In this document: in pieces, positions 25,469 through 40,354 of the stretch
Layout of the letters: every line of letters starts with the position of its first letter
Numbering within the stretch: position 1 is the first letter of the stretch
NCBI RefSeq assembly: GCF_003574735.1
Contig: NZ_QORW01000005.1
Location: 1 to 64,000, forward strand
Direction of reading: 5' to 3'
DNA length: 64,000 nt
Source: Dongia deserti
GTDB lineage: Bacteria > Pseudomonadota > Alphaproteobacteria > Dongiales > Dongiaceae
Notes under the pieces: generated by a model
Database searches by the model: none
What the model was told of the DNA's origin: nothing
What the model saw: the letters and a program-made list of their open reading frames with translations, nothing else
Position numbers and translations under genes: made by a program

Positions 25469-26650
25469 CTACGCCGCCAGCTTGCCTTCGAGGCCGTTGA
25501 CGAACATTACGCGCAGCTCCTTGGCGCCGACCTGGATCGGGTTGCCGCCGGCGCTGGGATCGGCGGCGGCCATCTCTGCCACCTTGTCGACCTGCTTGTC
25601 GTCGACACCGATCTCCTTCAGCGTGTGCGGGATGCCGATCTCCTTGCGCAGGGCGAGGATCCAGTCCAGCACCGCTTTATAGGAGGGGTTCGGCAGCCGC
25701 AGATAAGCGGCCAGCCGCGTCAGCTTCTCGTCGATCGCGGTGCGATTGAACTCCAGCACATACGGCATCACGACCGCGTTGGTGAGGCCATGGTGCGTGT
25801 TGTAGAGCGCACCCAAGGGATGGCTGATGGCGTGCATGCCGCCGAGACCCTTCTGGAACGCAGTCGCGCCCATGCTTGCGGCCGCCATCATGTTCGAGCG
25901 CGCGACCAGGCTCTTGCCGTCCTTCACCGCCGCCGGCAATGCGTCCTTGATGAGGCGCATGCCCTCGAGCGCGATGCCGTCGGCCAGCGGATGATAGCCG
26001 GGCGCGCAATAGGCCTCGAGGCAGTGGGAGAGCGCATCCATGCCCGTGGCCGCCGTGATATGCGGCGGCAGACCGACCGTCAGCTCCGGATCGTCGATCA
26101 CGATCGAGGGCAGCATCTTCGGGTGGAAGATGATCTTCTTTACGTGGATGCTCTCGTCGGTGATGACCGAGGCGCGACCCACTTCCGAGCCGGTGCCCGA
26201 CGTGGTTGGCACCGCGATGATGGTGGCGATGCCATTGGGGTCGACGCGGGTCCACCAATCACCGATATCTTCGAAATCCCAGATCGGACGTTTCTGTCCG
26301 ATCATCAGCGCGACCGCCTTGGCCGCGTCGAGCGCAGAGCCGCCGCCGAACGCGATCACGCCATCATGGTCGCCGGCCTTGTAGGCCGCGATGCCATCCT
26401 CGACGTTCTTGCCCGTGGGATTGCCTTGCACGTTGCTGAACAGGCCGGTCGGCACGCCGGCCGCTTCGTTGCGCGCGATCGCATCCTTGATCATCGGAAG
26501 GCTGGCGAGGCCGGGATCGGTGATGAGCAATGGGCGCCTCATGCCCAGCGCCTTGCAGTGATCGGCCAGCTCCTTGATGCGGCCGCAGCCGAACTTGACC
26601 GAGGTCGGGTAGTTCCAATTGCCGCGAAGCGCGGCGGCGTCGGTGGTCAT
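25469..26650 (-). CDS. Iron-containing alcohol dehydrogenase
   Basis: Group III metal-dependent NAD(P)-linked alcohol dehydrogenase, 393 residues. Nucleotide-binding GGGSALDAAKAVALM lies near 101-115, and TTSGTGSEVGRASVITD follows. Metal ligands are in DPELT and GMDALSHCLEAYCAPG (signature 2) and in GGMHAISHPLGALYNTHHG. It would oxidise a primary alcohol to an aldehyde or the reverse. It stands alone on the minus strand 6 kb from an aldehyde dehydrogenase with which it could form an alcohol-to-acid path; that link is inference. Confidence 0.95.
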   Translation of the reverse strand: MTTDAAALRGNWNYPTSVKFGCGRIKELADHCKALGMRRPLLITDPGLASLPMIKDAIARNEAAGVPTGLFSNVQGNPTGKNVEDGIAAYKAGDHDGVIAFGGGSALDAAKAVALMIGQKRPIWDFEDIGDWWTRVDPNGIATIIAVPTTSGTGSEVGRASVITDESIHVKKIIFHPKMLPSIVIDDPELTVGLPPHITAATGMDALSHCLEAYCAPGYHPLADGIALEGMRLIKDALPAAVKDGKSLVARSNMMAAASMGATAFQKGLGGMHAISHPLGALYNTHHGLTNAVVMPYVLEFNRTAIDEKLTRLAAYLRLPNPSYKAVLDWILALRKEIGIPHTLKEIGVDDKQVDKVAEMAAADPSAGGNPIQVGAKELRVMFVNGLEGKLAA

Positions 26651-28731: not shown

Positions 28732-30165
28732 TCACCGCCATGCTTTCGCACGTTCCACGGCACGCTCGAACCGCGCCCGGGCCTGATCCGGCAGGAGCCC
28801 GGGCTCAATCTCCGATCGGGGTGGAGGTGCCGCTGGCAGCGTGTCGATTGTTGCGAGACCGGCGCCGATGGCGGCGAACTGGGCCGCGCCGAGACCGGTC
28901 AGCTCGGTGCTGGCTGGGACGCGCACCCGCTTGCCCGCGGCGTCCGCCAGGAAGCGGTTGAAGTAGCGGTTCCGTGTCAGGCCGCCATCCACCGAAATCG
29001 TGCCGCCGAGTGGAGACAGTCGATCGATCGCCGCCAGAACGCGCTCCGACAGGAGCGCGATGCCTTCGAGCAGTGCCTGCATCATGTCGGCGCGGGTTGT
29101 GTCCAATCCCATGCCAAGCCACAAGCCGGCGGCGCGTCGGTCCCAGTAGGGGCAGGAGAGGCCACTCAACGCCGGCACGAAGACCAGGCCGCGCGCAATG
29201 GCCGGCTCGGCGGCGAAATCGTCGATCTCCTTGTAGTCGGCGAAAAGACCGAGATTACGCGCCCAATTGACCGCAGAGGCCGCGTTGTAGATGCCGCCCT
29301 GGAGCGCGTAGGCGCAGGGCGCATCGCCGATCTTCCACGCGATGGTGGCTTCGAGTCCGCTTTCGGTGTCGCGCGGGACGGCGGCGTCCGCCACCGCGAG
29401 CGCGAAGGCGCCGGTGCCGAAGGTGATCTTGGCGTCGCCCTTGCGGCGGCAGCCGTGGCCGAACAAGGCCGCCTGCTGATCGACCAGGCTGGCGGCGACG
29501 GGAATGCCGCGCGCGTCGCCGAACACGCCGGCGGTCGGTCGGATCTCCGGCAGGCACTCGATCGGCACGCCGAAGAGATCGGCCAGTCGTTCGTCCCACT
29601 GCAGTGTCTCGAGATTCATCAGGCTGGTGCGCGAGGCTGTGGTGACGTCGGTCGCGAACCGCCCGGTGAAGCGGTCGAGGAAAAAGGCATCGCTGGTGCC
29701 AAGCCGCAAGCGGCCGGCGCGGCGCAGCTCTTGCGCTTCCGGCACGTTGTCTAGCAGCCACCGCAGCTTGGTTGCGGAGTAGTAGGGATCGAGCGGCAGG
29801 CCGGCGACTTGCAGCGTCAAGGTCTCCGCGCCCTCGGATTTCGTGCGCTCCGTGACATCGGACGTGCGCGCATCCTGCCAGACGATGGCGTTGTGGATCG
29901 GCCGCTTGGTCGCGGCGTCCCAGGCGATCACCGTCTCGCCCTGGTTCGCGATGCCGATGGCGCCTGCATCACCTGCTTGGTCGAGGGCCGCCTCGACATG
30001 GCGCGCGATCTCCTCGGGATCGTGCTCGACCCAACCCTGCCGCGGATAGATCTGGCGATGCTCGAATGCGGCGATGGTTTCGAACGTGCCGTCGCTGCGC
30101 AGCCGGTGCGCCTTGGTGCCCGTGGTGCCCTGATCGATGGCGATGACGGAAGCTTCAGGCGGCAT
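28732..30165 (-). CDS. FGGY family glycerol kinase-like protein
   Basis: Sugar/polyol kinase, 477 residues, closest in appearance to GlpK: phosphate-1 loop IAIDQGTTGTKA (residues 8-19), GIANQGETVIAWD and NAIVWQDART like the glycerol-contact segments, SLVDQQAALFGHG with the catalytic Asp, and GTGAFAL plus DGGLTRNRYF for ATP. It is the last gene of a three-gene operon; its ATG lies 11 bases inside the preceding FAD-oxidoreductase gene. The context supports glycerol phosphorylation to glycerol-3-phosphate, but another polyol cannot be excluded. Confidence 0.9.
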   Translation of the reverse strand: MPPEASVIAIDQGTTGTKAHRLRSDGTFETIAAFEHRQIYPRQGWVEHDPEEIARHVEAALDQAGDAGAIGIANQGETVIAWDAATKRPIHNAIVWQDARTSDVTERTKSEGAETLTLQVAGLPLDPYYSATKLRWLLDNVPEAQELRRAGRLRLGTSDAFFLDRFTGRFATDVTTASRTSLMNLETLQWDERLADLFGVPIECLPEIRPTAGVFGDARGIPVAASLVDQQAALFGHGCRRKGDAKITFGTGAFALAVADAAVPRDTESGLEATIAWKIGDAPCAYALQGGIYNAASAVNWARNLGLFADYKEIDDFAAEPAIARGLVFVPALSGLSCPYWDRRAAGLWLGMGLDTTRADMMQALLEGIALLSERVLAAIDRLSPLGGTISVDGGLTRNRYFNRFLADAAGKRVRVPASTELTGLGAAQFAAIGAGLATIDTLPAAPPPRSEIEPGLLPDQARARFERAVERAKAWR

Positions 30166-31372
30166 CGACTTCCACCGACACTTGCTGGCAAGACCTCATG
30201 TCCCGATTGGGCAGCCGCCAGGCGATGCGGCGCTCGGGCAGGGCGGAGATGCGGCGCGACCACACGACCTTGCCATCGACCACAACCGACAGGCGGCCGC
30301 GCACCGCGCGCGACACGCGGGCCTTGAACAGCAAGGGATGGTCCGGCGCGTCGCGATAGATGCGCTGGGGATAGACATAGGCGAGCGGGCCCTGCAGCGT
30401 GACGTGCGCGTCGGGCTCTCTCGCGGGCAAGCGGTTCTCCAGCTCAGCGATCACCATTTCCGCCACCGCACGGCCTTCGCGCCAGCATTGACCAGCCGTT
30501 TCGATGCCGCGCAGCATGTTGCCGGCTGCGAAGTAGTTATGGTCGGAGCACCGGAAGTAGGGATCGATCGAGGGACCTCTGGTACCGGCATCGATCTCGA
30601 GATGGCTAGGTGCGATCAGCGCCGTCTCAGGTCGGAATTTGCCGGTCAGGATGACGCCATCGCATTCCATCTCTTCCGAGCCAAGACCGCGATCGATCTC
30701 GATCCCCGTCACCTTGTCCCGGCCGATGATGCGGATGAGGCGCGTGCGGGTCAGCACGGGCACGCCGAAGCCCAGCCGTGCTACCCAGGTGCCCGGCTCG
30801 CGCGCGGTAATGCGTTCGTTCTCCTCGATGATGGCGAGCGGCTTGATGCCGACGTGGCGCAGGGTGAGCAGGGTGGAGAAGGCGACCAGCTCGCTGCCGA
30901 TGACGACAGGCCGCTGGAACGGGCATTTGCCGTGCAGATAGACGAATTGCTGCAGCGCGCCGGTATTCATGACGCCGAACGGCCGTGAGCCGGAGATGAG
31001 GCGCGCGCTGCGCGGCGTTTCGCGCGCGCCGAACGCCAGCACGACGGCCTTGGCCTGGAAGTCTTCCGGGCCGTTGGGCCCGGTCGTGCGCACCAGCCCG
31101 CCGGGCTCGAGCTTCAGGGCCGTCATGCGCAAACGCAGGTCAGTGCCGGCCGCCTGATCAGCCAGACGCTTCGCATAGTCGGGACCGCTACAGATCCTGC
31201 CGAACTCGCGCAGACCAAAGCCGACATGGCCGCAGTGACGCGGAATGCCGCCGAGCGCGCTCTCGCGTTCCAGCAGCACTGCGTTGTGGACGCCAAGGCC
31301 ACGCAGGGCGCGTGCGCAGGACAGGCCTGCCGGTCCGCCGCCCAGGATCAGCACGTCGCTCTTGTGGGTCAT
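30155..31372 (-). CDS. FAD/NAD(P)-dependent oxidoreductase (NoxA/HcnB-like)
   Basis: A 405-residue pyridine-nucleotide disulfide-type flavoprotein: dinucleotide-binding LILGGGPAGLSCARALRGLG at the N-terminus, VVLAFGARETPRSAR, a second Rossmann segment (VVIGSELVAFSTLLTLRHVG), and DHNYFAAGNMLRGIETAG near the FAD ribityl site. The ATG at 31370-31372 overlaps the upstream gene's stop as ATGA. Similar proteins pair with GlpA-like dehydrogenases and pass electrons to or from NAD. Here it lies between that dehydrogenase and the kinase. Confidence 0.9.
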   Translation of the reverse strand: MTHKSDVLILGGGPAGLSCARALRGLGVHNAVLLERESALGGIPRHCGHVGFGLREFGRICSGPDYAKRLADQAAGTDLRLRMTALKLEPGGLVRTTGPNGPEDFQAKAVVLAFGARETPRSARLISGSRPFGVMNTGALQQFVYLHGKCPFQRPVVIGSELVAFSTLLTLRHVGIKPLAIIEENERITAREPGTWVARLGFGVPVLTRTRLIRIIGRDKVTGIEIDRGLGSEEMECDGVILTGKFRPETALIAPSHLEIDAGTRGPSIDPYFRCSDHNYFAAGNMLRGIETAGQCWREGRAVAEMVIAELENRLPAREPDAHVTLQGPLAYVYPQRIYRDAPDHPLLFKARVSRAVRGRLSVVVDGKVVWSRRISALPERRIAWRLPNRDMRSCQQVSVEVDAA

Positions 31373-32730
31373 GACGCCAGCCGTCCTTCGGCCAACGCGA
31401 AGACTTGAGCGCTGCAATAAAAACCCTGGCAGCGGCCCATCATGCAGCGCGTGCGGCGTTTGAGGCCGCCAAGATCGCCAGCAGGCAAGGGGCCTGCGAG
31501 CGCGGCCTCGATCTCGCTACGCGTCACCAGCTCACAGTGGCAAACGACATCGCCGCCAGCCTCGGTCAAGTACGGGCGTGCACGGTCCTCCGCGAGGTTG
31601 GGCACTGGTGTCCAGATCGGCTCCTCGTCGCGCACGCCGTCGAACGCCTCGGCGAAGTCGCGCCCGACCATCTGCGCAATGCCGAGCGCGGCGGTGAGGC
31701 CGGTGGAGCGGATGCCGCCGACCGTGACCCAGCGGCGCTGGCGGTCGACCGCGATCTGATAGTCCTTGAATTGCGTCGCGGGCCTGAGGCCGGCATAGAT
31801 CGCATTGACCGAATGGTCCGCAAGGCCGGGGATCATCTCGATCCCTTTTGCGATCAGGCGCTCCAAGGTCGCCTGGTCCACTTCGGCACGGCTGCGGTCC
31901 TGCTGATCCTCCGCGGTCGGACCGACCAGCAGATTGCCGAAAGCGGTGCGGCAGGCGACGATGCCCTTGCTGCGCTCCGTCGGCACCGGCAGGATGATGG
32001 CGTGCAGCAGCTTGGAAGCCGGCTTATCAAACACGACAAACTGGCCTTTGCGCGGCGTGATGGTGAAGGGGCTCTCCCGGTTGATCGCTTCCACCAGGTC
32101 GCCGTAGTTGCCGGCGGCGTTGATCACCACATCCGCGGCGATATCGCCGAGCGTCGTCTGCAGCATCCAGCGCTGACCGTCGAGTTCGCCGCCGGTGACG
32201 CGGCAGCGCCGCAGGATCCGCCCCCCGTGCGCCAGTCCCTGATGCGCGTAGGCGAGCGGCGCGGACCATGGATCGATGATGTGCTCACCGGGAATCAGTA
32301 CGGCACCGAGTGCCCGGTCGCTAAGGAACGGCTCGCGCTTGCGCAGCTCGTCGCGTTCGATCTGCATCACGTCGGTGACGCCGTTGCGGTGCGCCCTCTC
32401 GACGATGGCAGGCAGCTTCGCGAACTGCTCCTCATCCCACGCCACCACCAGCGCGCCGCTTTCCACCAGCGGCAGGTTGAGCTTGTGCTTGATCGCCATG
32501 TATTCGCGATAGCCGGCCTGCACGCAGGCGAGTTCGATGCTATTCTCCGGCGCGTCGAAGCCGGTATGCAGCAAAGCGCTGTTGCCCTTGCTCGCGCCGT
32601 CGAGGATGTCCGCAGCCGCTTCGACCAGGATCGGCTGGAGACCGGCGATGGCCAAGCGCCGAAAGATGGCGCAACCGACCACTCCGCCGCCGATAATGAC
32701 CACCCTGCTGCTTGCGATGGGTTCCCTCAC
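31369..32730 (-). CDS. GlpA-like FAD dehydrogenase with C-terminal BFD [2Fe-2S] domain
   Basis: FAD-dependent glycerol-3-phosphate dehydrogenase-like protein, about 453 residues. VVIIGGGVVGCAIFRRLAIAG binds FAD; the DAO domain spans about 8-370; the tail holds a BFD-like iron-sulfur domain with CHC followed by CMMGRCQGFYC (four Cys ligands). I start at GTG 32730 (VREPIASSRVV), since the TTG at 32775 lies inside the T-rich end of the upstream terminator. Similar dehydrogenase plus FAD-oxidoreductase pairs occur with glycerol kinase in Thermotoga-type loci, often with a DUF1667 protein, which is absent here. Substrate probably glycerol-3-phosphate. Confidence 0.85.
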   Translation of the reverse strand: MREPIASSRVVIIGGGVVGCAIFRRLAIAGLQPILVEAAADILDGASKGNSALLHTGFDAPENSIELACVQAGYREYMAIKHKLNLPLVESGALVVAWDEEQFAKLPAIVERAHRNGVTDVMQIERDELRKREPFLSDRALGAVLIPGEHIIDPWSAPLAYAHQGLAHGGRILRRCRVTGGELDGQRWMLQTTLGDIAADVVINAAGNYGDLVEAINRESPFTITPRKGQFVVFDKPASKLLHAIILPVPTERSKGIVACRTAFGNLLVGPTAEDQQDRSRAEVDQATLERLIAKGIEMIPGLADHSVNAIYAGLRPATQFKDYQIAVDRQRRWVTVGGIRSTGLTAALGIAQMVGRDFAEAFDGVRDEEPIWTPVPNLAEDRARPYLTEAGGDVVCHCELVTRSEIEAALAGPLPAGDLGGLKRRTRCMMGRCQGFYCSAQVFALAEGRLAS

Positions 32731-32771
32731 GGGGCGCAGATTTGCAGGGGTTTGAGGGTCTGTCCAGAGGC

Positions 32772-32804
32772 TCAAAAGGAAACGGCCGCCTCGCGGCGGC
32801 CGTT
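32772..32804 (-). terminator. Rho-independent terminator after the aldehyde dehydrogenase
   Basis: Perfect 10-base-pair stem AACGGCCGCC/GGCGGCCGTT (32781-32790 and 32795-32804), four-base loop, followed on the minus strand by TCCTTTTG. It ends the regulator-ligase-aldehyde dehydrogenase operon and separates it from the glycerol-type operon. Confidence 0.92.
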
Positions 32805-32819: not shown

Positions 32820-34208
32820 TCAGATCTTCCGCAGATGGAACGACTTGGGCCGCGTCAGCATCTCGTAGCCCACCCGGCTCAAGGTGGCGCCGCGGCCGGA
32901 ATCCTTGACGCCGACCCAGGCGAGGGCGGGGTCCAGATAGTCGCAGCGGTTCATGTAGATCGTTCCGGTCTCCAGGCGATCACCGATCTTCTCGGCTTCC
33001 TTCTCGTCAGACGTCCAGAGCGCGGCGGTGAGGCCGTATTTGCTGTCATTCATGAGGCGGATCGCCTCGTCGTCTGACTTCACCTTCATGATGCCGATCA
33101 CGGGGCCAAAGCTCTCCTCCGACATCACGCCCATGGAATGGTCGACATTCACCAGGACCTGCGGCGCCAGATAGGGCGTGCCCGGCTTGTCGGCGGCGAA
33201 GCTTTTGGGATCGATCAGCGGCTTGGCGCCGTGCTTCACCGCATCGGCGATCTGGCCGCGTACGAACTCGGCCGCCGACGTGCGCACCATGGGGCCAAGG
33301 TTGGTGCTCGGGTCGAGCGGGTTGCCGAGCTTGTATTTCTTGGTGAGATCGGCGAAGCCCTCGACGAACTTGTCGAACAGCTTCTCGTGCACATAGATGC
33401 GCTCGATGGCGCAGCAGCATTGGCCGGAGTTGAACATGGCGCCATCGACCAGGTTCTCGATGGCATGGTCGAGGTTGGCATCGGCGCGCACATAGGCCGG
33501 GTCCTTGCCGCCGAGCTCGAGCCCGAGACCGATGAACTTGCCGAGCGCGGCCTGCTGAACGGCATGGCCGCCGGCGACCGAGCCGGTGAAATTGCAGTAG
33601 GCGACTTCGGGTGCCGCAATAACCTTCGCCGTGTCGTCATGGGTCAGCACCAGATGCTGGAACAGGCCCTTGGGCAGGCCCGCGGCATCGAAGGCCTGCT
33701 GGTAGTCCTCGGCACAGATCGGCGTCTGGGCGGAGTGCTTGAGCACCACCGCGTTGCCCGCCATCAGCGCGGGCACCACGCCATTCACTGACGTGAGATA
33801 CGGATAGTTCCACGGCGCAACGATGAAGACGACACCCAGCGGCTCACGCCGGATGAACCGCACGAAACCAGCCTTGTCCTTCGCTTCGATGTCGGCCAGC
33901 GCCTCCCCGGCGATCTGGATCATGTAGCGGGCACGCTCCTCGAAGCCGCGCATCTCGCCTGGGCTCTGGGCGATCGGCCGGCCCATCTGGCGTGTGATCT
34001 GCTCGGCGTGCGCGTCCTTGTGCGAGAGGAAGATGTCGATCGCCTTGCTCAGGATCTTCGCACGCTCGGCAACGGGTGTGACCTTCCACTGCTGTTGCGC
34101 CTCCGCCGCGGCCTTCAACGTGGCGGCGATTTCCGCCGGGGTGGCGTAGGGCCGCTCGACATAGACGCTGTTATCGATCGGGGTGATGGTTTTCTGCGTG
34201 GCTGCCAT
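32820..34208 (-). CDS. NAD(P)-dependent aldehyde dehydrogenase
   Basis: Aldehyde dehydrogenase superfamily, 462 residues. VFIVAPWNYPYLTSVNGVVPALMAGNAVVLKHS binds NAD(P); GLELGGKDPAYV contains the general-base Glu; NSGQCCCAIERIYVHE contains the catalytic Cys; EESFGPVIGIM is near the C-terminal end. It starts at ATG 34208 (MAATQKTITPIDNS), 14 bases after the glutamine-synthetase-like gene, with which it shares the riboswitch-led transcript. It would oxidise an aldehyde produced from an amine or alcohol. Ends at a strong terminator. Confidence 0.94.
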   Translation of the reverse strand: MAATQKTITPIDNSVYVERPYATPAEIAATLKAAAEAQQQWKVTPVAERAKILSKAIDIFLSHKDAHAEQITRQMGRPIAQSPGEMRGFEERARYMIQIAGEALADIEAKDKAGFVRFIRREPLGVVFIVAPWNYPYLTSVNGVVPALMAGNAVVLKHSAQTPICAEDYQQAFDAAGLPKGLFQHLVLTHDDTAKVIAAPEVAYCNFTGSVAGGHAVQQAALGKFIGLGLELGGKDPAYVRADANLDHAIENLVDGAMFNSGQCCCAIERIYVHEKLFDKFVEGFADLTKKYKLGNPLDPSTNLGPMVRTSAAEFVRGQIADAVKHGAKPLIDPKSFAADKPGTPYLAPQVLVNVDHSMGVMSEESFGPVIGIMKVKSDDEAIRLMNDSKYGLTAALWTSDEKEAEKIGDRLETGTIYMNRCDYLDPALAWVGVKDSGRGATLSRVGYEMLTRPKSFHLRKI

Positions 34209-34222
34209 GGTGATGCCGTCCG

Positions 34223-35596
34223 TTAGATGATCTCGAAGTAACGCGCCAGTTCCCAATCCGTGATGTGCTTGCGGAACTCGCGCTCCTCCCACTCGCGGGT
34301 CGAAGCCCAATGATCGACGAAGGCTTCGCCGAACAGTTCGGCGGCCGCCTTCGATTTGCGCAGCCGCTGCGCTGCTTCCCAGAGCGTTCGCGGCAGGTCG
34401 AGCTTGGCTGGATGCTTCATGTCATAAGAGTTGCCCACGATCGCTTCCGTCGGCTCGATCTTGTTCTCGATGCCATAGAGGCCCGATCCGATGGCGACTG
34501 CAATAGCCAGATAGGGATTCATATCGGCGGCGGCGATCCGGTATTCAACCCGCTGCGACTTTTCGCTGCCCGGAATGACGCGCAGTGCGCAGGTGCGGTT
34601 CTCGACGCCCCAGGTGGAATTGGTCGGCGCCCAGAAGCCGGGAATGAGGCGCGAATAGGAATTGACCGTGTTGCTCACCATCGACAGCAGTTCCGGCATC
34701 AGGGCCTGCTGACCGCCGACAAACCAGCGCTGCTTGTCGCTCATGGTATGCGGCTTCTTGGCGTCGTAGAAGGCGGACTTGCCGTCCTTGTTTTTAAGGC
34801 TGACGTGAATGTGGCCGCTCTGGCCCGGCCAGTTGTTGGACCACTTAGCCATGAACGTCGCCATCAGGCCGCGGCGCTGTGCCAGCACCTTCATGAAGGT
34901 CTTGAACAGGGCCGCGCGATCGGCACTTTCCAGCGCCTTGTCGACGGTCAAGGCCGCTTCCAGCACGCCGGGACCGGTTTCAGTGTGCAGGCCCTCGATC
35001 GGCATGCGCATCTTCTCGCAGGTATCCAGGATCTCGTGATAGAGCTCCGCCCAGACCGAGCCGCGCAGCACCGAATAGCCGAAATAGCCCGGCGTCATGG
35101 GCACCAGATTGCGGAAGCCCTTCTCGCGCACGCTCTCCGGCGTCTCGTCGAACATGAAGAACTCGTATTCGGCGGCGGCATAGGCCTCGTAACCCATCTT
35201 CGCCGCCTTGCCGAGCACGCGGCGCAGGACGCCGCGAGGGCAGATCTCCTCCGCCTTGTTCACGAACTCGCAGAGAAAAAAGAGCATCCCGTCCTCGAAC
35301 GGGATCTCGCGGCAAGTCTCCGGAATCACGCGCACCCAGGCGTCGGGGTAGGCGGTGTGCCAGCCGGTATATTTGACGTTGTCGAACAGCTGGTCGTTGC
35401 TGTCCCAGCCCAGCACCACGTCGCAGAATCCGAAGCCGTTTTCCAGCGCCGAGAGGAACTTCGCCTTCGACACGTACTTGCCACGCAGGATCGCATCGCC
35501 ATCGAACACGCCGACCTTGATGTGGGCGAGGCCGCGCTCCTCCACGATCTTTTTGGCGTCAGCGACGCTCTTCACCTGCTCCGGCTTCAAAGGCAT
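34223..35596 (-). CDS. Glutamine synthetase-like gamma-glutamyl-amine ligase
   Basis: Glutamine-synthetase-fold enzyme, 457 residues. EYEFFMFDE (first metal Glu), EGLHTETGPGVLEAAL, SGHIHVSL (catalytic His region) and NSTWGVENRTCALRV are visible. The divergent N-terminus (LKPEQVKSVADAKKIVEERGLAHIKVGVFDGDAILRGKYV) and the lack of the GlnA adenylylation-loop pattern suggest a gamma-glutamylpolyamine or gamma-glutamylethanolamide synthetase-type ligase rather than GlnA. GGGGG precedes the ATG. Operon: AraC-type regulator 47 bases upstream, aldehyde dehydrogenase 14 bases downstream, tandem glycine riboswitch in the leader. Amine substrate is not known. Confidence 0.9.
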   Translation of the reverse strand: MPLKPEQVKSVADAKKIVEERGLAHIKVGVFDGDAILRGKYVSKAKFLSALENGFGFCDVVLGWDSNDQLFDNVKYTGWHTAYPDAWVRVIPETCREIPFEDGMLFFLCEFVNKAEEICPRGVLRRVLGKAAKMGYEAYAAAEYEFFMFDETPESVREKGFRNLVPMTPGYFGYSVLRGSVWAELYHEILDTCEKMRMPIEGLHTETGPGVLEAALTVDKALESADRAALFKTFMKVLAQRRGLMATFMAKWSNNWPGQSGHIHVSLKNKDGKSAFYDAKKPHTMSDKQRWFVGGQQALMPELLSMVSNTVNSYSRLIPGFWAPTNSTWGVENRTCALRVIPGSEKSQRVEYRIAAADMNPYLAIAVAIGSGLYGIENKIEPTEAIVGNSYDMKHPAKLDLPRTLWEAAQRLRKSKAAAELFGEAFVDHWASTREWEEREFRKHITDWELARYFEII

Positions 35597-35643: not shown

Positions 35644-36741
35644 CTAGGCGGCGTGGCGACGCGCGCCGGAAGGGCGTTTGGTGGGTGAGTGCTTGAGCGT
35701 CGGCGCGTCCCCCGTGAGGCCGTCTCCCGGCTGGTCGCCGGGCGTGGTGAAGTGACGTTGGCGGTCCTCGCTTGGCCTGATTCCGTGGGCGTCCATATAG
35801 CATTTCGAGAAATGCGAAAGCGAGTCGAAACCCACCGCTTCCGCCACCTGCGCCAGCCCCATCATCGTGCCCTGCACCAAGTCGCGCGCGCGAGCCAGAC
35901 GTAAGCGCTGATAATAGCCGCGCGGACTGACGCCGAGATGGCGGTGGAACAGTCGTTCCAGGTGACGCAGGTGAATGCCGGCCTCCGCCGCGATCCTGGG
36001 CAGCGGAACGGGATCGGAGACCGTGCTGCGCATCAGCGCGACCGCCCGCTTGATCGGCGGTGCCACCTGGGTCTCGATCGATTGCTGCTGGTCAGCTGCC
36101 GGCTCGATCTTCTTGCGCATCCGCTGGCGGGCGAGGCGCATCATCACCTGTTGCGCGATCGGCGCTCCCAGCAACGCTTCGACATTGGCGAGGGCGAAAT
36201 CCGAGGTCGCGCAGCCACCGCGGCAGCCGAAGAAATCGTCCTTGCGCCAGAACAGTTCCTTGCGCTGGGCGTGGCCGCGCGCGCGCTCCTTGGGCATCGC
36301 GGAAATGCGCCCCAGGACAGAGCAGCCGCCGCCAACGCCGCCGAGCCGCTGGATTGATGCCGGATGGGCGCTGAGCCAGGCGGCGAGCCCGGCGCAATCG
36401 TCGCCAGAAGCATCGGAATCGCTGAACACCATGACCGTGGAAAACGGGCGCAGCTCCGTCACGTCGCCATCGGCCGCAACCGGAATGCCGGCGGAACTGG
36501 TCACAGAGCGGCCCGAAATGGCCACGACCTCCCATAGGAACATGCGGCGATGCGCCAGTTCGTTGGCTGAGGTGAAGACATCAAGCAGACGTGCCAGATC
36601 GCCCAGCGCGAATCCGTTCATCAAGACGAGGCTGAGGCGCGCGCGGCGCTCGATATCGAGCGCGAAGGGCGAAGCCGGCGCGCGCAACGTCTCCGCCATA
36701 CTGGGCGGCCGCCACGCACGATGATCCTCACCTTCCGCCAT
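35644..36741 (-). CDS. GlxA family regulator (DJ-1/PfpI-like domain plus AraC HTH)
   Basis: A 365-residue regulator of the GlxA/GbdR type. Residues about 28-205 are a catalytically inactive DJ-1/PfpI-like sensor domain (LSLVLMNGFALGDLARLLDVF); residues 225-325 are the two AraC helix-turn-helix units (LPRIAAEAGIHLRHLERLFHRHLGVSPRGYYQRLRL and VAEAVGFDSLSHFSKCY). Relatives such as GbdR and CdhR control catabolism of glycine betaine, carnitine and related amines. ATG 36741 follows GGGGGAA. It is the first gene after a tandem glycine riboswitch, which is an unusual target. A run of small residues between 330 and 365 looks disordered. Confidence 0.92.
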   Translation of the reverse strand: MAEGEDHRAWRPPSMAETLRAPASPFALDIERRARLSLVLMNGFALGDLARLLDVFTSANELAHRRMFLWEVVAISGRSVTSSAGIPVAADGDVTELRPFSTVMVFSDSDASGDDCAGLAAWLSAHPASIQRLGGVGGGCSVLGRISAMPKERARGHAQRKELFWRKDDFFGCRGGCATSDFALANVEALLGAPIAQQVMMRLARQRMRKKIEPAADQQQSIETQVAPPIKRAVALMRSTVSDPVPLPRIAAEAGIHLRHLERLFHRHLGVSPRGYYQRLRLARARDLVQGTMMGLAQVAEAVGFDSLSHFSKCYMDAHGIRPSEDRQRHFTTPGDQPGDGLTGDAPTLKHSPTKRPSGARRHAA

Positions 36742-36800
36742 CAAGCTTCCCCCGGGCTGACCGATGGTCCGTCCTCCTGCCCCGCGGCAGGCGAGCGGTC

Positions 36801-37020
36801 CCCCCTCTGTCTATTGGACCTGAGAGATTCACCGTCACACCGCGATCAGCGAGAACGGCTTACCCCTTCGGTGAGGCATCAACGGCCGACCGCCGCCATG
36901 CCCGCTTTCCAGAGCATTCGGCCGCGATCGGTCCTTTTGCCTGAGAGGTTCCGGGGGCGGTTGCTCCTTCGGCGCTACGATCCCCAGTAGTCTCTCATTC
37001 GGGTCGCAGTCTCTCCCGAC
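36801..37020 (-). promoter_or_regulatory. Tandem glycine riboswitch
   Basis: On the minus strand, two consecutive glycine aptamers. Aptamer 1 (about 37020-36928) has GGGAGAGAC, then GCGCCGAAGGAGCAA, then CCTCTCAGGCAAAAGGACCG, close to the Rfam-type consensus. Aptamer 2 (about 36916-36805) has GCTCTGGAAAGCGGGC, then CACCGAAGGGGTAAGCC, then AATCTCTCAGGTCCAATAG and CAGAG pairing with CTCTG. A short linker joins them. Between it and the ATG at 36741 is a CCTGCC-GCGG-GGCAGG hairpin and the AGGAGG-like purine tract, but no T-run, so control may be on translation. Such riboswitches normally precede gcvT; here it precedes a GlxA-type regulator, a glutamine-synthetase-like gene and an aldehyde dehydrogenase gene. 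Confidence 0.93.
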
Positions 37021-37039
37021 GGCGGCGAAACAAGCGGCA

Positions 37040-37068
37040 AGTCTGTGTTGCCGCCCATGCTCCGTCAA
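37040..37068 (-). promoter_or_regulatory. Candidate promoter of the riboswitch operon
   Basis: Minus-strand TTGACG (37068-37063) and CAGACT (37045-37040), 17 bases apart, resemble a sigma70 promoter. Transcription would begin near 37033, just before aptamer 1, which fits. The -10 match is poor, so this is tentative. Confidence 0.4.
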
Positions 37069-37350: not shown

Positions 37351-37863
37351 ATGCCTAGATTCATCGTGGCTTACGTCCGGTACGTCGAAGCGTTCAACCG
37401 GGCCGTTGGCAAGTTCGCCATGTACCTGATCCTGCTGCTGCTCGGGATCTTGCTGTATGCCGCCTTTTCAAAGGCAAGCACCGATATCTCGCCGATCTGG
37501 ACCGTAGAAATGGCCCAGTTCACGCTGACGGCGTACTTCATGCTCGGAGGCGCCTACGCGTTGCAGAACAACGCGCTGGTGCGCATGGACCTGTTCTACA
37601 GCCACTGGAAACCCAGGACGCGTGCGATCGTCGACTGCATCACGATCATCGGGCTACTGATCTATCTTGCTATCCTGCTTTACGGCGCCGTGATCAGCAC
37701 GCATTACACCTTCGAGATCGGACAGCGCAGGCCGAGCGCTTGGCAGCCCTATCTCTGGCCGATCCGCACGATCATGTCGATTGGCGTCCTAATGATGCTG
37801 TTGCAGGCGATTGCGACCTTTTTCAAGGACCTGGCGATCGCGCGCGGGAAGCCGATCGAATGA
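37351..37863 (+). CDS. TRAP transporter small permease (DctQ family)
   Basis: Small membrane subunit of a TRAP transporter, 170 residues, with four hydrophobic helices (about 24-44, 58-78, 97-117 and 134-156). Segment WTVEMAQFTLTAYFMLGGAYALQNNALVRMDLFYSHW is typical DctQ. It pairs with the large permease, whose ATG overlaps its TGA by four bases. Divergent from the glycine-riboswitch operon. TRAP systems import organic acids or amino-acid-like anions using a sodium or proton gradient. Confidence 0.93.
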   Translation: MPRFIVAYVRYVEAFNRAVGKFAMYLILLLLGILLYAAFSKASTDISPIWTVEMAQFTLTAYFMLGGAYALQNNALVRMDLFYSHWKPRTRAIVDCITIIGLLIYLAILLYGAVISTHYTFEIGQRRPSAWQPYLWPIRTIMSIGVLMMLLQAIATFFKDLAIARGKPIE

Positions 37864-39182
37864 GCTACGAACTCATCGCCCTGACGATGTTCGTATCCAT
37901 GCTGATGCTGCTGGCCACGGGCCAGCGAGTCTTCGGCATGATCGGTTTTGTCGGCGCAACGGCCGCGTTGCTGCTCTGGGGCGATGGTGGCAGCAACATG
38001 GCTTTCGCTGGCGCAGGCAAGCTTGAGAGCTGGTATGCGCTCGTTACCGTGCCGATGTTCATCTTGATGGGCTACGTGCTCGCCGAATCCGGCATCGCGG
38101 GCGACCTCTATCGGATGTTTCACGTGTGGATGGGCGGCATCCGTGGTGGGCTTGCCCTCGGCACCATCGGGCTCATGGTCATGATTTCCGTCATCAACGG
38201 CCTGTCCATCGCCGGCATGGCGATCGGTGCGACCATCGCACTGCCCGAGTTGCTGCGGCGCGGCTACGACAAGCTGATGGTTACGGGTGTGGTGCAGGCC
38301 GGCAGCACGCTTGGGATTCTTATCCCGCCGAGCGTCGTGCTCGTTCTCTACGCGATGATCGCACGCCAGCCGGTCGACCAGCTGTGGCTCGCCGGCATCT
38401 TTCCCGGTCTGCTGTTGGCCGGATTGTTCATGATCTATATCGCCGGGCGCTGCTGGCTGCAGCCGCATCTGGGACCTGCGCTTCCCAAGGAAGAGCGCAA
38501 CATCCCGATGCGGGAGAAGCTGAAGCTGCTCTGGGTGGGGATCGTGCCGCTCCTGGTGTTCGGGTTGATGATCGGCCTGTTTGTCACCGGCATCACCAGC
38601 CTGGTCGAGAGTTCAGCTGTCGGCGCCGCGGCAGCCTGCCTGGCTGCACTGCTCAAGGGCAAAATGAACAAGGCATTGATCGAGAGTACGTTCCGGAAGA
38701 CTCTCGATGTCACTTGCATGTTCATGTGGATCATCCTGGCAGCACTGTGCTTCGGTGCCGTGTTCGACGGACTAGGTGCTGTCAATGCCGTGAAATCGCT
38801 GTTCCTGGAGAAGCTGGGCCTGGAGCCGTGGGAAGTGCTGATCCTGATGCAGCTTTCCTTCCTGGTCATGGGCATGTTCCTGGACGACACGGCCATGCTG
38901 GTGATTGTCGCGCCGCTCTACATTCCACTGGTGCGGGTGCTGGGATTCGACCTCATCTGGTACGGCGTGCTCTACACGATCACCTGCCAGATCGCCTACA
39001 TCACGCCACCATTCGGCTACAATTTATTCCTGATGCGCACCATGGCCCCGCCCGGCATCACGATGCGCGACATCTATCACTCGATTTATCCGTTCGTCGT
39101 CGTGATGGTGATTGCATTGGCGCTGGTGATGATATTCCCGGAGATCGCGCTTTATCTGCCGCAGCTTTATCGCGGACAATAG
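37860..39182 (+). CDS. TRAP transporter large permease (DctM family)
   Basis: A 440-residue membrane subunit with about twelve helices that carries out the ion-coupled transport step. NGLSIAGMAIGATIALPELLRRGYDKLMVTGVVQAGSTLGILIPPSV and MGMFLDDTAMLVIVAPLYIPLV and the closing TPPFGYNLFLMRTMAP are DctM signatures. ATG 37860 lies in an ATGA overlap with dctQ. Followed after 122 bases by the binding-protein gene. Confidence 0.95.
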   Translation: MSYELIALTMFVSMLMLLATGQRVFGMIGFVGATAALLLWGDGGSNMAFAGAGKLESWYALVTVPMFILMGYVLAESGIAGDLYRMFHVWMGGIRGGLALGTIGLMVMISVINGLSIAGMAIGATIALPELLRRGYDKLMVTGVVQAGSTLGILIPPSVVLVLYAMIARQPVDQLWLAGIFPGLLLAGLFMIYIAGRCWLQPHLGPALPKEERNIPMREKLKLLWVGIVPLLVFGLMIGLFVTGITSLVESSAVGAAAACLAALLKGKMNKALIESTFRKTLDVTCMFMWIILAALCFGAVFDGLGAVNAVKSLFLEKLGLEPWEVLILMQLSFLVMGMFLDDTAMLVIVAPLYIPLVRVLGFDLIWYGVLYTITCQIAYITPPFGYNLFLMRTMAPPGITMRDIYHSIYPFVVVMVIALALVMIFPEIALYLPQLYRGQ

Positions 39183-39304: not shown

Positions 39305-40354
39305 ATGGATAAGAACAGACGCAAGTTCCTGCGAACGGCGGGCGTAGCCGCGGCCGCCGCCGGATCGGTGATCGCCGCGCCGCACGTGAAGGCGCAGTCC
39401 ACCATCAAGTGGCGTCTTCAAACCTATGCCGGCCCGGCGCTGGCCGAGCATGTGATCAAGCCGTCGCTTGACGCATTCAACAAGGCGGCGAACGGTCAGA
39501 TGATGATCGAGCTCTACACGTCGGACCAACTGGTGCCGACTGCGGAGCTGTTCCGTGCCGTACAGGACGGCACCCTCGACGCAATCCAGACGGACGACGA
39601 TTCCGTCGGCGCACCGGTCGACGTGGCGGTGTTCTCGGCCTATTTCCCGCTGGGATATCGCTATTCGCTCGACATCCCGGTGCTGTGGCACCATTACGGC
39701 ATCAAGGAGATCTGGGAAGAAGCCTATAAGGACGTGCCGAACGTCACCTGGCTTTCGACAGGTGCCTGGGATCCGTGTAACTTCGCGACCACGAAGCCGA
39801 TCCGCTCGCTCGGGGATCTGAAGGGCTTGCGAGTCTTCTCGCCGCCAACGGCCGGGCGCTTCCTCACCCGCTTCGGGGTGGTGCCTGTCACGCTGCCTTG
39901 GGAAGACATCCAGGTCGCGATCCAGACCGGCGAGCTTGACGGCATCGCCTGGTGCGGCGCGACGGAGACCTATACGGTCGGCTGGGCGGACGTGACCAAG
40001 TACTACCTCACCAACAACATCTCGGGCGCGTGGGCTGGCTCCTACTTCGTCAACTCGGCGAAGTGGAAAGAGGTGCCCGAGCATCTGAAGACGCTGTTCC
40101 AGCTCTCGATCGATTCCTCGCACTACTACCGGCAGCATTGGTACTGGTGGGGTGAGGCGCACTACCGCACGACGGGCGGCAAGCTCGAGCTCACCACCAT
40201 TCCCGAATCCGAATGGAACCAGGTCGAGGAAGAGGCGCACAAGTTCTGGGACGAGATCGCGGCCAAGAGCGAGCGGAGCGCGAAGATCGTGAAGATCCTG
40301 CGCGACTACGCCGAAACCATGCGCAAGGCGGGCCCGCCGTACCGCTACGGCTGA
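39305..40354 (+). CDS. TRAP transporter substrate-binding protein (DctP family)
   Basis: Periplasmic binding protein, 349 residues. The N-terminus is a Tat-type signal (NRRKFLRTAGVAAAAAGSVIAAPHVKAQ), so it is probably exported folded. The mature part has family features IELYTSDQLVPTAELFRAVQDGTLDAIQ, NFATTKPIRSLGDLKGLRVFSPPTAGRFLTRFG and LPWEDIQVAIQTGELDGI. A strong ribosome site (GGGGAGG) precedes ATG. The ligand cannot be assigned; the neighbouring catabolic genes suggest a carboxylate or amine-derived acid. A terminator follows. Confidence 0.94.
   Translation: MDKNRRKFLRTAGVAAAAAGSVIAAPHVKAQSTIKWRLQTYAGPALAEHVIKPSLDAFNKAANGQMMIELYTSDQLVPTAELFRAVQDGTLDAIQTDDDSVGAPVDVAVFSAYFPLGYRYSLDIPVLWHHYGIKEIWEEAYKDVPNVTWLSTGAWDPCNFATTKPIRSLGDLKGLRVFSPPTAGRFLTRFGVVPVTLPWEDIQVAIQTGELDGIAWCGATETYTVGWADVTKYYLTNNISGAWAGSYFVNSAKWKEVPEHLKTLFQLSIDSSHYYRQHWYWWGEAHYRTTGGKLELTTIPESEWNQVEEEAHKFWDEIAAKSERSAKIVKILRDYAETMRKAGPPYRYG

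Follow-up and report, generated by a model that had tools for sequence, protein, structure and literature searches.

A gcvT-type tandem glycine riboswitch in front of a probable ethanolamine operon in Dongia deserti

The window analyzed here—the first 64 kb of contig NZ_QORW01000005.1 of Dongia deserti—carries on its minus strand a tandem glycine riboswitch in front of an operon that opens with a regulator gene, a glutamine synthetase-like (GS-like) ligase and an aldehyde dehydrogenase (ALDH). Our preferred reading, to which we assign a probability of about 0.6, is that a gcvT-type ON tandem heads an operon for ethanolamine gamma-glutamylation and that glycine raises the translation of its first gene. 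This would be a known RNA on a metabolically meaningful target that is apparently unreported, as far as literature searches, mostly outside subscription papers, go. If true, the locus represents a new kind of glycine riboswitch target—an upstream amine-catabolism operon with glycine as its end product.

A second tandem glycine riboswitch in the genome

Two glycine aptamers adjoin in one minus-strand leader. In a covariance-model search with Rfam, aptamer 1 (36919-37028) scores 60.7 bits with RF00504 (E 4.3e-10) and aptamer 2 (36797-36918) 40.8 bits (E 7.8e-5)—or 45.3 bits at 36797-36922 in a second RF00504 scan—at a gathering score of 32 bits. An earlier, sequence-only reading of this DNA had recognized the tandem, and the core motifs that it quoted are present in the leader. 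The span that it gave, 36741-37020, reaches the ATG of the regulator gene (36741, 55 bases past aptamer 2) but leaves out 8 bases at the start of aptamer 1 and came without a strand. Judged by its sequence, the leader is a standard tandem glycine riboswitch, and the RNA itself is no new kind. The structural labels of aptamer parts used below (P1, P3a and the like) are those that we presume to apply.

The genome bears another tandem on contig C12, directly before a GcvT gene (PF01571, PF08669), so that the window locus is a second, separate glycine riboswitch. The claim that glycine-cleavage genes are missing around it holds within the part of the 64 kb open reading frames (ORFs) that was scanned, among which no such gene was found.

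Upstream of aptamer 1 lie two short boxes on the minus strand (37040-37068), TTGACG (37068-37063) and, after a 17-nt spacer, CAGACT (37045-37040), which we take to be a −35 and a −10 box. They are conserved in the family: TTGAC precedes aptamer 1 by almost the same distance in all ten family leaders that head the ligase operon (ethanolamine-type leaders hereafter) and in all eight gcvT-type family leaders printed, and the second box, read by eye 17 nt further on, is CANACT in nine of the ten ethanolamine-type leaders and GAGACT in the tenth (G012). Hence, transcripts should begin just before aptamer 1—the predicted −10 box ends about 11 bases before it—and include both aptamers.

Two further tracts deserve mention at this point. 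The P3b loop of aptamer 1 contains a poly-C tract (36953-36957, minus strand) that is complementary to a poly-G tract directly 3' of P1 of aptamer 2 (36800-36805, minus strand), and the two are predicted to form the sides of a P5 pseudoknot. Glycine would stabilize the docked tandem together with P5 and raise translation of the first gene.

An operon that probably serves ethanolamine

The regulator gene (35644-36741) is followed on the minus strand by the GS-like ligase (34223-35596; PF00120, E 1.3e-99) and the ALDH (32820-34310, true start probably near 34208; PF00171, E 2.9e-126), just as the sequence-only reading had it. A Fe-dependent alcohol dehydrogenase (Fe-ADH; 25469-26650, minus strand; PF00465), whose relatives follow the ligase and ALDH in many related loci, stands in the window about 2 kb beyond a kinase gene of the same operon and is not directly adjacent to the ligase–ALDH pair. 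Divergent from the ligase operon, a tripartite ATP-independent periplasmic (TRAP) transporter is encoded on the plus strand by DctQ (37351-37863; PF04290), DctM (37740-39182; PF06808; the listed ORF start overlaps DctQ, and the true start is later) and DctP (39305-40354).

This DctP points to a substrate. It matches 4uab at E 1.3e-149, and 4uab and 4xf5 are both titled Csal_0678 of Chromohalobacter salexigens; the structure model of the window DctP is poor (mean predicted local distance difference test score, pLDDT, of 37), and the fold search served only for these two titles. The protein shares 78% identity with the DctP encoded in a Modicisalibacter cluster that comprises TRAP, ligase, ALDH and Fe-ADH genes. 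According to PMC10132767, ethanolamine is bound by Phaeobacter EtoX (dissociation constant 7.9 uM) as it is by the C. salexigens homologue, and the same operon encodes an ethanolamine gamma-glutamylase, two dehydrogenases and a gamma-glutamylglycine amidohydrolase. The window holds a DctP of the Csal_0678/EtoX type as well as the GS-like ligase, ALDH and Fe-ADH expected of an ethanolamine operon. Among the best 80 of 399 ligase loci—70 of them outside the family, some cut by contig ends—the ALDH accompanies the ligase in 69, and in 57 of the 70 non-family loci, which include Pseudomonas, Halomonas relatives and Oceanospirillales, ligase, ALDH and Fe-ADH lie on one strand. DctP is present in 15 of these 70.

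Because the Csal_0678-type DctP and the ligase–ALDH–Fe-ADH cluster are shared with the ethanolamine set, the operon is likely to take ethanolamine as its substrate and to end in glycine, and it probably serves ethanolamine catabolism by gamma-glutamylation. The ligase would convert ethanolamine to gamma-glutamylethanolamide, the Fe-ADH probably oxidizes this to the aldehyde and the ALDH probably acts on the resulting gamma-glutamyl-aminoacetaldehyde to give gamma-glutamylglycine, whose hydrolysis would release glutamate and glycine. Compared with the pathway as outlined in PMC10132767 (EtoVWX, ETAGA, GAADDH, GETADH), the window shares the Csal_0678-type TRAP transporter, the GS-like ligase, the ALDH and the Fe-ADH; the Phaeobacter operon described there has an RpiR regulator, whereas the window has a DJ-1/AraC regulator, an added glycine riboswitch, extra flavin adenine dinucleotide (FAD) enzymes and an FGGY kinase. 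Streptomyces GlnA4 is listed with the same pathway (PMC6529630).

The sequence-only reading had supposed that the regulator responds to another amine than glycine. Ethanolamine, as the likeliest substrate, is now the best candidate for this amine, and glycine is then the end product of the route and not an unrelated second input.

Distribution in the family and the class

All 17 family genomes have at least one tandem glycine riboswitch. The ligase is found in 15 of them (E 1e-150; G015 and G016 are without a match), and in 10 of these 15 a second tandem sits at the ligase operon. In G003, G004, G006, G007 and G008 the gene next to it is the ligase itself, in G000, G009, G010, G011 and G012 a regulator. 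As the ligase follows the riboswitch without a regulator in half of the leaders, the riboswitch goes with the ligase operon and not with the regulator.

Across the class, the target is very unusual, as had been suspected. A match to RF00504 occurs in 107 Alphaproteobacteria genomes, 104 of them outside the family; 94 of these were fetched, the ten lowest-scoring genomes being left out, and gave 100 loci. In 94 of the 100 loci the riboswitch is followed on its own strand by GcvT; none of the window's operon proteins was matched in the other six, so that the operon is found at 0 of the 100. Three of the six have a serine dehydratase (SDH_alpha/SDH_beta) after the riboswitch, in L156 (G211) and L173 (G085) directly and in L136 (G218) behind a PhyH-like gene; L149 has a Gly_transporter gene (PF03458), L175 a DAO oxidoreductase, and L157 is the remaining locus without a GcvT match. 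On contig C70 of G115, the riboswitch matches L149 and L157 lie about 1.3 kb apart, the first of them preceding the Gly_transporter gene.

The ligase (E 1e-200) is present in 28 of 190 class genomes, 25 of them outside the family. An RF00504 match exists in 24 of these 25, on another contig or more than 300 kb off (G211, G225), and a riboswitch adjoins the ligase in 0 of the 25, several of these ligases lying near a contig end. When the best 80 of 399 ligase loci were scanned with a model built from the family aptamers, 7 loci, all of the family, gave a riboswitch; this model is not sensitive, as six of the seven came up without their second aptamer, and one extra match (E 0.18) was taken as chance. 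A further 29 genomes, three of them family members, were obtained by way of ligase loci, and 11 of the 29 have a riboswitch match at whatever distance from the ligase.

The regulator and a possible toggle

The sequence-only reading had described the first gene as a DJ-1/AraC regulator of the GbdR kind. The AraC part stands: the C-terminus is an AraC helix-turn-helix (HTH) by Pfam (PF12833, E 1.9e-21) with a structure match at Z 16.4. The N-terminus is without a Pfam DJ-1 match, and the DJ-1-like fold comes from a structure model of low confidence (pLDDT 58), which matches 3gra, an AraC family regulator of P. putida, at Z 13.3 (root-mean-square deviation 2.8, 138 aligned residues) and isocyanide hydratase and human DJ-1 at Z 9.6-10.9, mostly over residues ~30-207. 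From this model, the protein would combine a DJ-1-like N-terminal fold with an AraC HTH, as do AraC regulators of the GbdR/GlxA type. Its assignment to GbdR itself did not stand, the best NCBIfam match being GbdR (NF052371) at 141.5 bits, far below the equivalog cut-off of 480.

A two-input circuit, in which the purpose of the riboswitch is to control the amount of this transcription factor, has in its favor that a regulator is the first gene in five of the ten leaders and that, within the genus, the ribosome site of the regulator is complementary to the aptamer 1 loop. The comparison within the family argues against it. Five other leaders have no regulator, and among the 17 family genomes a close orthologue (at least 73% identity) occurs only in the window's own genus, where the identities are 90, 92, and 73%. 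The regulator of G012 is 39% identical over 334 residues, or 49% over 185 in another comparison, and among the best 80 of 399 ligase loci the regulator is matched in only four, all from the family. With the regulator missing in half of the leaders and its close orthologue bound, within the family, to one genus, the riboswitch probably did not arise for it. The shared pair is riboswitch and ligase operon, which makes the regulator a later insertion or a gene lost elsewhere. The proposal of a regulator-specific switch finds no support in that form, and we hold the two-input circuit as the purpose of the riboswitch to be a minority possibility, though the strongest of the alternatives. In the genus, where the regulator stands between riboswitch and ligase, glycine would also set the dose of what is probably the operon's own regulator.

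In all four leaders of the genus, the presumed Shine–Dalgarno sequence of the regulator lies within CCGGGGG (36749-36755, minus strand, in the window), to which CCCCCGG of the aptamer 1 loop is exactly complementary. Ligase-first leaders share only GGGGG with the complement of this loop, and G012 and six tested gcvT leaders reach at most four contiguous pairs between the loop and the ribosome site. From the 7-mer frequency in the window (11 occurrences in both strands, this site counted), the chance of such a complement is ~0.001 per site. In the genus, the poly-C loop might pair with the ribosome site when glycine is absent, one loop toggling between two G tracts. As ribosome sites are expected to be G-rich anyway and the four genomes are relatives, the toggle is a lead only. 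In the N. gonorrhoeae gcvT riboswitch (PMC13104608), a tandem with a possible P5 is given a translational ON model, like the proposal for the window; there, nucleotides of aptamer 2 block the ribosome site, whereas in the window it is the aptamer 1 loop that is the exact complement, and this in one genus only.

Direction of control

Glycine riboswitches of the gcvT type are usually ON switches. The window leader shares with the tandem in gcvT leaders (RF00504, ON, P5) the two aptamers, their cores, the poly-C and poly-G tracts and the upstream promoter-like box, and the family's own gcvT leaders have the same architecture. It differs in its target, a ligase/ALDH operon with a regulator first in part of the family.

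We had considered the pairing potential of the aptamer 1 loop with the sequence 3' of aptamer 2 as a new pseudoknot, a candidate that was dropped because it is already described as P5: as cited in PMC13104608, Torgerson 2020 found it frequent in ON and absent in OFF glycine riboswitches. It serves here only as a diagnostic. Complementary P5 tracts are present in all ten ethanolamine-type leaders and in all 11 gcvT-type leaders extracted from the 17 family genomes. Class-wide, P5 covariation could be parsed in 94 of the 100 loci (L127, L143, L149, L159, L175 and L204 were missed; L136, misparsed, is counted), and at least five contiguous Watson–Crick pairs join the aptamer 1 loop and the post-aptamer 2 strand in 79 of the 94—compared with 2 of 94 for windows shifted by 14 and by 28 bases alike and 19.5% of trials with shuffled strands. 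Among 30 loci that do not belong to the majority type, true partners form a helix of 5.8 on average (G–U allowed), more than the mean of each of 5000 re-pairings (largest 5.27); in an earlier parse with 24 such loci, 0 of 2000 re-pairings reached the true-partner mean.

In the gcvT leaders of Alphaproteobacteria (L105-L204), the covariation extends well beyond poly-C/poly-G, for example with GCTCTC facing GAGAGC and GGCCTC facing GAGGCC, and could therefore be added to a tandem covariance model. Similar complementarity was seen by eye in some leaders of other classes (L207, L208, L221).

The same riboswitch and pathway might also operate as an OFF switch, glycine as the end product shutting the ethanolamine operon down. 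For this speaks that the product of the target is glycine itself, and that among the ethanolamine-type leaders aptamer 2 shows slightly greater likeness between genomes (0.781) than aptamer 1 (0.733), the reverse of the order in the gcvT family leaders (0.680 and 0.759); PMC6944388 links a conserved aptamer 2 to transporter switches, in other taxa. OFF-type switches of sodium:alanine symporters have the same aptamer class. According to PMC13104608, they lack P5, the tracts of which the window has. With the P5 tracts in 10 of 10 leaders, the grouping of these leaders with the family's gcvT leaders (see below) and aptamer 1 scoring above aptamer 2 in 9 of 10 (the exception is G008), we regard OFF control as unlikely, slightly more so than the two-input circuit. 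Glycine-ON control would be the likelier direction at about 3 to 1. Folding of the leader was dropped as evidence for the direction, as it gave no consistent alternative pairing.

For an ON switch in a catabolic route, product-driven positive feedback would follow, the opposite of textbook end-product repression. One could imagine that a glycine-ON switch copied from a gcvT leader locks the cell into using ethanolamine and cleaving glycine jointly, and that in the genus this becomes an AND gate with the DJ-1/AraC regulator by means of the poly-C loop toggle—to the P5 poly-G tract for ON, to CCGGGGG for OFF. We put this forward tentatively, as one conceivable elaboration of the ON switch and not a probable one.

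Several observations weigh against an ON switch that heads an ethanolamine operon, among them the slight lead of aptamer 2 in conservation, which in other taxa goes with transporter switches. In five family genomes (G001, G002, G005, G013, G014) this riboswitch is absent although the ligase is there. A promoter-like TTGCCG-N16/17-CTAAAT was seen by eye between aptamer 2 and the ligase in four ligase-first leaders (G003, G004, G006, G008), so that the ligase may also be made without the riboswitch. The Csal_0678-type DctP is present in only 5 of the 17 family genomes, and the scan of the operon genes turned up no gamma-glutamylglycine hydrolase; candidates for this step are two strong Peptidase_C26 genes elsewhere in the genome, on other contigs. 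Finally, the fold of the full leader is not clearly more stable than that of shuffled sequences (z −1.56), and leader folding yielded no clear switch that would define an expression platform.

Other substrates and the origin of the leader

A glycine-ON switch might also head an operon for another amine—2-amino-1-propanol, methylamine or a polyamine—with glycine only as a general nitrogen or one-carbon signal. The ligase scores below every NCBIfam cut-off (GlnA, GS type III, gamma-glutamylputrescine synthetase), and glycerol-kinase- and GlpA-like genes stand in the operon without an assigned role. DctP is limited to 5 of the 17 family genomes, and four ligase-first genomes (loci L006, L007, L009, L012) instead have an amino-acid-permease-family gene upstream of the riboswitch, the fifth, G007, having TRAP genes there. 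Nevertheless, DctP and the ligase–ALDH–Fe-ADH cluster match the ethanolamine set of PMC10132767, and the ethanolamine pathway yields glycine, which would explain the riboswitch. We hence consider another amine to be improbable, more so than OFF control.

In a tree of 66 leaders, the 10 ethanolamine-type leaders group with 7 of the 11 extracted gcvT-type family leaders at a support of 98/77, which is below the starred level, with a bootstrap that had not settled and a class part of 45 of the 100 leaders. This grouping fits, without proving it, a duplication of the family's gcvT leader, from which the window leader probably arose. If so, the locus is a concrete case of a riboswitch that was copied to a new operon and came to head a transcription-factor gene. 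Such a descent would suit a non-functional passenger copy of the gcvT leader as well, but ten genomes have kept the cores, the promoter-like box and the P5 tracts although the leader has diverged in other parts, which makes a passenger highly improbable.

Accompanying genes and linker sequences

Three further genes of the operon lie on the minus strand between the ALDH and the Fe-ADH: a GlpA/GlpO-like FAD oxidoreductase (DAO) with a BFD [2Fe-2S] domain (31369-32775; PF01266, PF04324), an FAD/NAD(P) oxidoreductase (Pyr_redox_2; 30155-31417, from the domain search) and a glycerol-kinase-like FGGY kinase (28732-30165; PF00370/PF02782). Of the 10 family genomes with the riboswitch, 8 have all three kinds along with the ligase operon; of the other two, G010 has a contig that ends early, and G007 is without them in the stretch fetched. 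A role of the glycerol-kinase- and GlpA-like genes in the use of glycerophosphoethanolamine was considered, as an idea only.

The window DctP is closer to that of Modicisalibacter (78%) than to the four other DctPs of the family (61-62%), and the TRAP genes, divergent in the window, lie upstream and in the same direction in G011 and G007. Together, these observations make a replacement of the transporter by transfer possible.

In the five ligase-first leaders, the ligase starts ~130-190 bases past aptamer 2. The linker of four of them (L006, L007, L009, L012) shares a hairpin right after aptamer 2 and a stretch like CAACCCGACGTCGGGGAG, and GTCGGGGAG in the ligase-first linker resembles the gcvT ribosome site GTCGGAGGG.

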